Part shown: in pieces, positions 24,801-53,142 of the stretch
How the letters are laid out: every line of letters starts with the position of its first letter
Position numbering within the stretch: position 1 is the first letter of the stretch
From: Amphibalanus amphitrite
Lineage: Eukaryota > Arthropoda > Thecostraca > Balanomorpha > Balanidae
DNA: 64,000 nucleotides
Reading direction: 5' to 3'
Assembly (NCBI RefSeq): GCF_019059575.1
Contig: NW_024882193.1
Location: 248,001-312,000, forward strand
The notes under the pieces: generated by a model
What the model saw: only the letters and a program-made list of their open reading frames with translations
What the model was told of the DNA's origin: nothing
Database searches by the model: none
Translations under genes and position numbers: made by a program

Positions 24801-27800
24801 AAGGTGCCGCGCTGGAAGAAGAAGGCCTGCAGGAAGGCGCGCCGCCAGCAGCGCCGCAGGGGCGTCACCCAGCGGCCGGCGCCGACCGCCGCTCCGACCG
24901 CCGCGCCGACCGCCGCTCCGACCGCGCCGCCCGTCACCTGCCGTGAGTCCGACCGTCGCCTGCCGTGAGTCCGACCGGCACCTGCCGTGAGTCCGACCGG
25001 CCACCTGCCGGCAGTGCGTCCCCAGCCACTCCGTCCCCAGCACCTGCCGGCAGTGCGTCCCCAGCCACTCCGTCCCCAGCCACTCCGTCCCCAGCACCTG
25101 CCGGCAGTGCAGCTTGCAAAACACAAATAGGAAAGTTGTTCCTTTTTTAGACCTATTTTGTTAACAGCCAACAGGCAGTGTGAGTGAGGTACTCGTATTG
25201 GTTCAGTGGCTCTTTTCGTGCTTTTATTCGCACCTAAATAGTAGGCATGGAATATGTTAAAGCCAATTATCATAGTGATTCTACGACTCATTTGCTACTG
25301 CCGACAACAAAAGTTCTCGTTATGCCGTCGTAACGACATAAAGAGTTACATACCTATGTATTATGTATGTCGACTTATGTCGACGTATGCAACATGCATC
25401 AGCCATCAGCCTCACCGTGGAATGCTCATTGTTATTGGTAGATGCGCGCATTATTATATTCAGCTGTTTTTACATTCTTTGGCAGCTTTCGGAAATAAGT
25501 GGTAAAAATTCCTTCTTGCTGTTCAGTGAATGTGTTTTAAGGCCCAGTCCTTTTTTGGGCCCTTGCGGTTCTTCTTTACTATCCCAGCTACGTGCTGTCG
25601 CAAAGTCGTCCTTGGAATCCTGGAGGGTGGAACAGTGTGCTAACTGTTCAGTGTGTTAGTTTCGCAGTTTTTATTGACTATTGAGTATTGATGGAATATG
25701 TGACCCTATGAACTTTTAAGAACACATTCACATAACCTAAAATTGTTTGTCTGCTTTTCATTTACAGACATTTCTATTGCCAGAATCGTATTCCTCTCGC
25801 CGAGACGCGTCGAATGAACTATAATTTGATCTTGAAAGGTCAACTTTAAAATTTGGCCTCAGGTCGAGGTCATGACCTGACCGAAAAAGGTCATGTTGCA
25901 TATCAGTCGATGCGTCTCGGCAAGACAAACACAATGAGACCATCTCCAGCGTTCTATCTTTTTCCAATCGAGAGTTATTGGCAAAAATCTGTTTGTAGCC
26001 TCCAAATGACCTCGGATGACTTTTCTAGAGGCTATCAGGGGCATTCCACGTCAAATCAAACACCGAAATCCGTCATCCCCTTCGATTTTTCTGAAAATTT
26101 GTAGGCAGACTGGGCATGGTTCAAAACTGAGTTACGTATAATATTTTCGAAATTTGATAACGTATCGCTGAGATATAGGTCATCGAATATAGCCAAAAAT
26201 GTCACACATCAATTTTTTAAATGTCTATAACTCTGGTTCCTTTTCTGGTATCAAAACGATATTAACAGGGTCTTGTAGGCAATTGATAAGGCTTTGATTT
26301 TTAGTTATAAAATTAAACTTAAGTGACCTTGAAATGCATTTGACCTTGAATTAAAACAGAAAATTTAGATAGCAAAAAACACGCCACCTTCGATTTGGGT
26401 AATTTTTACATATTATGTCCGTCACAATGTTCCTAACCATCTGTGAAAAAATTGAAGTGGGCCATTCATAACTTTCGCGGCAAACGCCGTTTTCATGCAT
26501 CAACATCACGCAACCGCGCGTGACCTTGAAAGACAGAGTCAAGACATGCTTGCTTGTGTACACTTTCTGAAATGAATGATTGCTGATTAGTGATATCCGT
26601 AGTTACGTGACCCGCCGACAGGTGGGGCCGGTGGCGTTCGCCCTGCCCGCCACCGGCAGTGCGTGCTCGCTTTCGGCAGAGCTCGGAGCTCCCTGTGCGT
26701 GGCCCAGTCGCCGGTATTTGAGGCGGTTCGGGTCTCCGCATGTGCTTTGAGCGGTGCGGAGATGGAGGAGGCTATCCGCGAGTTGGCGGAAAAAGTGAGT
26801 GCCATCGAGGCATCAGTGCGCGTCATTGACGCTCGTGTGAGTGAGCCCAACGCCGGTCGTCGGCACGTGGCTCCAACGGCTCTCAGTGCAGCCGAGGCTG
26901 CTGAGCCCAGTGAGAAGCAGGAGCAGCCGAGTTTCGGCGCGTCAGCAGATCTGCAGGCTGACTTTCGAGCGATTCGGGACAGCCTGAGCAAGGTCAAGCT
27001 CCCTCAGGACTTGGTGGTTGGTGACTCCCGAGCCGGAATCGGCAAGGCTGATCTAGCGCGCTTCCAGGTCATCCAGAAGTGCGCCCGTTTCCAGGAAACC
27101 GCCTTGAAGATACTGTCTTCGGCGCAGGTAGCTGATCCAGTGATTGACCAGCTCACAACCGTGACGCTGGCTCAGCTCAGGTTCCTACAAGAGGAGTACA
27201 CTCATCTGATTGTCTCCAACCAGTTCGACGACTCTACGGCGCAGCTGTTCAAAACGCTGCAACACAACCCGGCGACCTTCACGCCTGGAGCAGTGGAAAA
27301 TCTCCAGCGCGCCGTGGCCATTGCCGGGGCGCGGCAGCATTCTCGTCAGGTCAGCCAAGTTCCTGACCGTGGTCGCTGGCGAGGTTCAGCACCGCAGGGC
27401 CAACGGTTATACGGCGGCCCGGTGTCGTCTGATTGGCGGAGCCGCGGTCGTCCCGGCCTGCCGCCGTCACGTGACCTGCCGAGGTCGAGTCAGTCTGGTG
27501 GGGCGGGGGCCGGAGCTGCGGACTGATAGTGAGAGTGGACATGGTGCTGCGGCCGGAGGCCTGGGCGGGGATCGGTGCGTCTGATACAGTACTTAACTGG
27601 GTGACGGAGGGCGTGCCCATCCCCCTCGTGCGTGAACCCGAGCGTAGAGTGTTCACCAATCCAGTGTTTAGTGGTGCAGAGAAAACGTTTTTGGACCAAG
27701 AAATCAGTGCGCTGGAAGAGAGGGGTATTATTCGGCGGGTTCGCGACATGCCCCATTGTGTATCGCCGCTGAAGGTAGTACCCAAGAGTGGCGGCAAGTT

Positions 27801-52873: not shown

Positions 52874-53142
52874 GCCGGCCGGCGCCCGCTCCACGCCGGT
52901 CTGCTCTGCCGCCCGCCCGCCCGCCAGCTGCACCCAGTTCTTCTGAGCCGGCCGGCGCCCGCTCCACGGCGGTCTGCTCTGCCGCCCGCCCGCCCGCCAG
53001 CTGCACCCAGTTCTTCTGAGCCGGCCGGCGCCCGCTCCACGGCGGTCTGCTCTGCCGCCCGCCCGCCCGCCAGCTGCACCCAGTTCTTCTGAGCCGGCCG
53101 GCGCCCGCTCCACGGCGGTCTGCTCTGCCGACCGCCCGCCCG
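52851..53142 (+). repeat. 73-bp tandem copies of the last-exon end
   Basis: Four copies at an exact 73-bp period (CAGCTGCACCC at 52,852, 52,925, 52,998 and 53,071). Each includes the last coding codons (SCTQFF), the TGA and about 48 bases of 3'-UTR. Only the first is in the functional frame before the stop. Confidence 0.95.

Follow-up and report, generated by a model that had tools for sequence, protein, structure and literature searches.

Repeats located at exon boundaries have been described in amphioxus under the name of 'mirages', and the accessible part of the report calls the mechanism behind them unclear (PMC3087553). The genes named in the available excerpts are Adh3, the globins BflGb6 and BflGb9, troponin C and PGBD5; the units measure 10–72 bp in Adh3 and ~150–160 bp in the globins, the arrays differ in length between haplotypes and undergo concerted evolution, and splicing is reported to be undisturbed (PMC3087553, PMC3902484). 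In humans, internal tandem repeats at exon-intron boundaries have units of 30 bp on average and vary in copy number, and the accessible text reports novel introns and alternative splicing for such repeats in segmental duplications (De Grassi and Ciccarelli 2009, PMC2812944).

Here we describe arrays of this kind in a lectin-like gene of the barnacle Amphibalanus amphitrite. The window, that is the whole stretch of 64,000 nucleotides analysed, covers positions 248001–312000 of contig C696 in a genome of 807.6 Mb and 2644 contigs. In this gene the units span the boundary at four donors (exons D, E, G and I) and one acceptor (exon I), the splice signals lie inside the units, and both 5′ and 3′ boundaries are affected. 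The barnacle arrays are thus a further case of the mirage structure that is already known, and the sequence-only reading of this DNA, which knew of no described mechanism that targets splice donors in this way, is to be set against the amphioxus report, as excerpted, in which such repeats already have a name (PMC3087553). As far as the excerpts go, the two systems are alike in that the units span either exon-intron boundary, carry the splice signals inside and have comparable lengths; copy number also differs between haplotypes in both, if the second copy of the barnacle gene, on contig C225, is the other haplotype. Unlike the amphioxus cases in these excerpts, a single gene of the barnacle has such arrays at four donors, at one acceptor and over the stop codon, with up to ~55 units, and our survey adds a small-sample frequency estimate for one genome. 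The difference from the human boundary repeats, again as excerpted, is that the barnacle arrays lengthen introns whose acceptors lie elsewhere. No repeats at splice junctions in a crustacean were found in the open-licence literature searched.

Tandem duplication of a proto-splice site is also reportedly a route of intron gain, a proposal said to be that of Rogers in 1989 and Zhuo in 2007. The trait shared with the barnacle arrays is a duplicated segment that carries a splice signal. At donors D, E, G and I the repeat does not supply both splice sites: the arrays stop before the acceptor that is used, by 196 bp (I), 304 bp (E) or kilobases (D and G), and since the used acceptors lie outside them, these arrays did not create their host introns.

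A lectin-like gene with arrays over its exon ends

The gene has at least 12 exons (A–L, all on the plus strand), called from splice motifs and frame, which join as a single open frame, and a Lectin_C domain was found in its product. A search of 5.8 billion proteins, which reaches only relatives that have short exact words in common with the query, retrieved as sole homologue an uncharacterised protein of the barnacle Pollicipes pollicipes, with 60% identity over the whole query. Exons A (21619..21816), B (22752..23041), C (23894..23949) and D (24776..24942, with a 12-bp coding repeat at 24879–24931) align weakly to this homologue and were assigned from frame and splice motifs; a signal-peptide exon upstream of exon A was not located. 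Open frame and homologue alignment together define exons E (42008..42136), G (43323..43466), H (48504..48623), J (50955..51182) and K (51813..51972). Exon F (42872..43003) has an apparent GC donor (AAG/GCGAGT, 43003–43005) with no array after it, the C-type lectin domain begins in exon I (50437..50621), and the last coding exon, L (52725..52874), carries the stop codon TGA at 52871–52873. The alignment to the Pollicipes protein is gap-free at the E/F, G/H, I/J, J/K and K/L junctions, which supports those exon borders.

The first unit of such an array lies across the border of a coding block, which is usually a 5′ splice site and in some cases a 3′ splice site or a stop codon. At four of the 11 splice donors, and at the stop codon, a tandem array contains the junction in its first unit (22, 33, 41, 37 and 73 bp). 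Tandem Repeats Finder places a 22-bp array over the donor of exon D (24927..25010, 3.8 copies), a 33-bp array over that of exon E (42130..42568, 13.3 copies), a 41-bp array over that of exon G (43444..47003, of which 43444–45715 is called as 54.7 copies), a 37-bp array over that of exon I (50614..50759, 4.0 copies) and a 73-bp array over the stop codon (52850..53144, 4.0 copies), all on the plus strand. An element with inverted ends (~45716–46951) interrupts the 41-bp array near its far end. At all four spanned donors (D, E, G, I) and at the stop codon, the lag-identity of the intron or UTR carries on into the exon, where the array phase reaches back ~16 (D), ~7 (E), ~23 (G), ~8–11 (I) and at least 24 nt (stop); BLAST confirms exon-reaching repeats at E, G, I and the stop codon, while the call at donor D is by lag-identity.

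These results bear out most of what the sequence-only reading had described. It had seen the exon end with its donor as the first array unit in its introns 3, 4, 6 and 8, which are introns 4, 5, 7 and 9 in the twelve-exon numbering, and Tandem Repeats Finder and lag-identity agree; the sizes (22, 33, 41 and 37 bp) and copy numbers were reproduced by Tandem Repeats Finder, as was, with BLAST in addition, the stop codon of the last exon inside a 73-bp array of four units. Its claim that units are unrelated between junctions held when the Tandem Repeats Finder output was judged by sight, and different units at separate junctions fit its view that duplication was separate at each. It had also put arrays within about 35 bases of the donor in its introns 2, 7 and 9; Tandem Repeats Finder gives distances of 21 nt (its intron 7) and 34 nt (its intron 9) for two of them, and 68 nt for the other (its intron 2). 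The 21-nt case is a 22/31-bp array past the donor of exon H (48644..50044) and the 34-nt case a 25-bp array past that of exon J (51216..51316), both on the plus strand and neither spanning the junction.

Acceptor-side structures had been missed. A 44-bp duplication spans the acceptor of exon I (50363..50477, plus strand), with an upstream copy at 50363–50406, the real junction at 50434–50477 and 89% identity between them (BLAST, E=6e-11), and a non-spanning 12-bp array of 6.8 kb (35224..41988, plus strand) stops 20 bp short of the acceptor of exon E.

Within the 41-bp array we counted 40 intact GGCTGTAAGT donors and 13 units with CT replacing GT; the 33-bp array holds 10 GTGGGTGAG. Units 1–4 of the 41-bp array match the exon unit exactly, and among the single-length units, to which this comparison was confined (three are double), substitutions are most numerous (4) in the last one, past the inserted element. 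The junction units of 22, 41, 37 and 73 bp are not multiples of three, that of 33 bp is, and the repeat inside exon D has a 12-bp unit; non-triplet units at the junctions against a 12-bp unit in the exon fit a frameshift filter that acts inside exons and is absent past the first donor.

A second gene copy with different copy numbers

Contig C225 carries a second copy of the gene, in which 23 of 1116 sites differ over seven exons (2.1%), with synonymous changes in 18 codons and non-synonymous ones in 5; past the G array, 947 bp of intron are 94.6% identical between the copies. We read the C225 copy as probably the other haplotype, the alternative being a recent paralogue. The sequence-only reading had proposed a comparison of alleles, and in counts of junction words, which cover donors E, G and I, acceptor I and the stop codon, copy numbers differ at five junctions; a C225 counterpart of donor D was looked for and not located. 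Donor G has 2 copies in C225 against 55 in the window, so that the 41-bp array there consists of two copies only, and donor E has 5 against 13. At donor I the order is reversed, with at least 12 copies (the C225 array runs past the piece read) against 4, and the exon-start word of the exon I acceptor occurs 4 times against 2. The stop codon is present in 1 copy against 4; the stop-codon array is therefore absent from the C225 copy. The element with inverted ends is absent from the C225 stretch read (L096). By eye, a retroelement-like sequence lies a few bases past donor I in C225, before the remaining array (L097, from ~375 onward in coding orientation).

Placement of arrays within the gene

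Arrays make up 44% of the gene, against 1.6% of the upstream flank, 5–15% of the downstream flank and 0 to 12% of 17 other 10-kb loci of the genome. On a chance reading, some arrays of so densely filled a gene must touch exon ends, and because the gene is unusually array-rich, chance placement had to be tested at other loci as well. Within the gene, five arrays span a donor or the stop codon, whereas placing each array at random inside its own intron, with the stop array fixed, gave a mean of 1.5 (P=0.001); a cruder uniform null, in which arrays may overlap, gave a mean of 2.5 (P=0.07) and is easier to reconcile with chance. Array starts near donors also exceed the null (P=0.0007). Acceptors are crowded too, as chance would allow: six arrays end at most 75 bp from an acceptor (null mean 1.9, P=0.004), and five end 10–27 bp upstream of one.

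Duplications at kinase exons of the same genome

We therefore surveyed 40 loci with 300-bp flanks drawn from partial PF00069 matches, among the matches listed, and compared each locus with itself to find duplications that span a junction. From 46 donors called, five with weak scores were removed (L060, L064, L068, L084 and L085), leaving 41; the second-exon donor positions of L077 and L079 were reset by eye. Removal of homologues (L050, L058, L065, L078 and L086) left 36, and five further pieces, three of them without a donor, added two, giving 38. Retaining L051 instead of L050 raises the donor count, the second donor of L079 is a GTGA microsatellite and that of L077 was weak-scored before the reset; we give three counts, 7/38 (generous), 5/38 (conservative) and 4/37 (strictest), which allow successively for these doubts. 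Of 44 acceptors called, 40 were left after removal of L061, L068, L071 (weak) and L084, and 35 after one member of each homologous pair was removed by hand, with 2 hits, or 1 if L065 represents L066. For comparison, 510 control points were taken at random within loci L011–L027, regardless of base composition or genic position; these loci sit at round coordinates on contigs already met and were not randomly drawn.

Duplications were found at 12/510 control points, and the kinase donors exceed this at each count (7/38, p=0.0001; 5/38, p=0.004; 4/37, p=0.018), whereas the acceptors alone do not (2/35, p=0.22; or 1/35). With 4–7 of 37–38 kinase donors and 4/11 donors of the lectin gene against 12/510, donors are duplicated more often than control points of this genome, which supports the sequence-only reading in this respect. 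An excess of donors over acceptors is weak and only suggestive: pooled, 11/49 against 3/46 gives p=0.04, stricter counts give p=0.05 and 0.09, and kinases alone give p=0.16 to 0.36.

Of 41 loci, duplication covers 0–3 at positions 40–240 nt inside the exon, 7 at a depth of 20 nt, 8 at the donor itself and 4–6 across the first 240 nt of the intron. Seven of the nine arrays that start near kinase donors start inside the exon, six of them at 27–40 nt inside. Under uniform starts this excess has P=0.001 for 7/9, and P=0.004 and 0.011 for 6/8 and 5/7, counts from which doubtful rows were removed; if spanning arrays stay visible twice as long, the three values become P=0.02, 0.05 and 0.09. Spanned donors at 4–7 of 37–38, together with the sparse coverage deeper in the exon and the own-intron null, make chance placement an improbable account, for all that the lectin gene is much richer in arrays than its flanks.

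By eye, the kinase duplications in L057/L058, L070/L089, L061/L088 and L079 repeat the end of the exon together with its donor; in L077 both exon ends are duplicated. We take L057/L058 to be an MRCK-like kinase, L070/L089 to be ATG1/ULK-like, L061/L088 PASK-like, L079 CaMK-like and L077 PKG-like. Homologous pairs, which are alleles or paralogues, differ in their structures. L066 has a 97-bp acceptor duplication and its homologue L065 does not; a donor duplication is present in L051 but not in L050. One unit close to the exon distinguishes L057 from L058, and the synonymous differences between their exon ends look as though a unit had replaced the exon end. A few bases of the array differ between L070 and L089; the pair L061/L088 is identical, so that not all mirages vary. 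Over seven homologous pairs, exon identity is 91–99% and that of the intron flanks 0.35 to 0.92 with gaps, against an unrelated baseline of 0.41.

Do the arrays, then, target donors specifically, as the sequence-only reading had supposed? A mechanism that acts on the DNA and is coupled to transcription or splicing, such as R-loops, nicks or donor-bound RNA, would account for donors, and not acceptors alone, exceeding the control points and for the starts 27–40 nt inside the exon at six kinase donors. The arrays show strand skew without a common sign, however, and for want of a shared skew the R-loop reading was dropped. Acceptors and stop codons moreover carry like structures: the acceptor of exon I is duplicated, L066 and L077 are acceptor duplications elsewhere in the genome, and among C-type lectin terminal exons L032/L033 has a diverged repeat across the stop codon, as does, in array form, the lectin gene. 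The L032/L033 repeat is one case in a sample of 20 loci of 150 PF00059 matches among the matches listed (~13 distinct, near-identical ones joined by eye). We consider specific targeting of donors unlikely.

A further scan, of the window and 19 large loci, looked for open frames followed by arrays whose unit contains a donor. One candidate, L023 1850–2006 (38 bp, 4.1 copies), was left out of the counts, as no verified exon could be attached to it; at 1850–2006 and beyond, this locus has 38-bp and longer arrays after an open frame rich in GC and may be a similar gene.

Origin and tolerance of the arrays

The arrays include the real junction, separate junctions have different units, copy numbers differ between gene copies, and such arrays recur in unrelated genes. 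The explanation we favour, and think likely to be right, is that they are mirage minisatellites: junction-spanning duplications that are tolerated and then turn over as minisatellites do. The initial duplication would arise by slippage, template switch or unequal exchange. It would do no harm as long as splicing uses the 5′-most donor, or translation ends at the first stop codon, since the further units then fall in the intron or the 3′ UTR. Inside exons only in-frame repeats would survive, and upstream copies across acceptors would be expected to do more harm. Once two copies are present, unequal exchange and slippage could lengthen or shorten the array and keep its units and the exon end alike. 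In the alignment to the Pollicipes protein there is no gap at E/F, G/H or I/J, which suggests that the first donors are used there and that no unit is kept in the protein; judging from this homologue and from general splicing rules, exons E, G and I are probably spliced from their first donors and the decoys ignored. Because 40 of the 41-bp units keep GTAAGT, some use of decoy donors is possible.

Selection for the arrays, with extra units serving as spare donors or a length-variable intron tuning lectin splicing, is very unlikely. Many units do retain intact donors, and a prawn lectin family, according to the available extract, varies through coding tandem repeats and alternative splicing (PMC7536079). 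Against this, the unrelated kinases have like structures, GT has become CT in 13 of the 41-bp units, copy number spans 2 to 55, and a stop codon has no obvious gain from being copied. Least likely of all is an artefact of assembly in a repeat-rich genome, as long arrays in a draft of 2644 contigs might suggest, since the assembled copies on C696 and C225 agree on unit sequence and flanks (the latter at 94.6% over the 947 bp after the G array), units carry distinct variants, one holds an inserted element, and short mirages of few copies occur at several other loci.

It counts against this explanation that, were tolerance the sole filter, intron-only arrays should be commoner near kinase donors than we observed. 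The excess at the exon edge over the adjacent intron, together with the acceptor and stop-codon cases, suggests that what matters is the edge of the coding block and not the donor. The cause of this preference that we prefer, although it is unproven, is failed recombination or strand exchange at the edge between a conserved exon and a diverged intron. Lancelets are hyperpolymorphic. In hyperpolymorphic animals the two chromosomes would be near-identical only within coding blocks, and strand exchange begun in an exon could meet a diverged intron or UTR, stall and switch template back, leaving a tandem duplication astride the edge. Donors, acceptors and stop codons would be equal targets, and harm to splicing would thin the acceptor class. 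For a barnacle, the accessible text on Balanus improvisus gives a coding diversity of ~5% and a diversity at fourfold sites of ~20% (PMC8270832). As a general proposition, that recombination in hyperpolymorphic genomes fails at conserved coding-block edges and deposits duplications there, so that mirages are a scar of homology-limited recombination, we offer this tentatively and with more doubt than conviction.

Supporting signs are the flanks, more diverged than the exons in the seven pairs, the synonymous changes in L066, where three synonymous codons set the upstream acceptor copy apart from the real exon before the two diverge, and the fact that stop codons are hit. On the other side, the C225 introns are ~94% identical to those of the window, so that homology extends past the exons in the lectin gene, which counts against such a scar, and an excess of donors over acceptors would be unexplained without a splicing filter. 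If true, recombination failure at coding-block edges would explain mirages in both lancelets and barnacles. If the sampled rate of 4–7 of 37–38 donors holds, the genome is a large natural experiment on how the spliceosome chooses between donors of the same sequence and supplies raw material from which new introns could form; it also allows one to test whether gene edges are scarred when very different homologues recombine.

Mobile elements and repeats in the window

Three further sequences were observed in the window. A 569-aa open frame lies on the minus strand within intron 4 (32168–33877); from its motifs we take it to be a Penelope-like reverse transcriptase with a GIY-YIG-like end. Positions 30000–30500 comprise 501 bases of a genomic repeat with at least 40 scored copies at 99–100% identity (1392 candidates at first look). 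By eye, 57200–58500 on the plus strand resembles a Tc1/mariner-type transposase.
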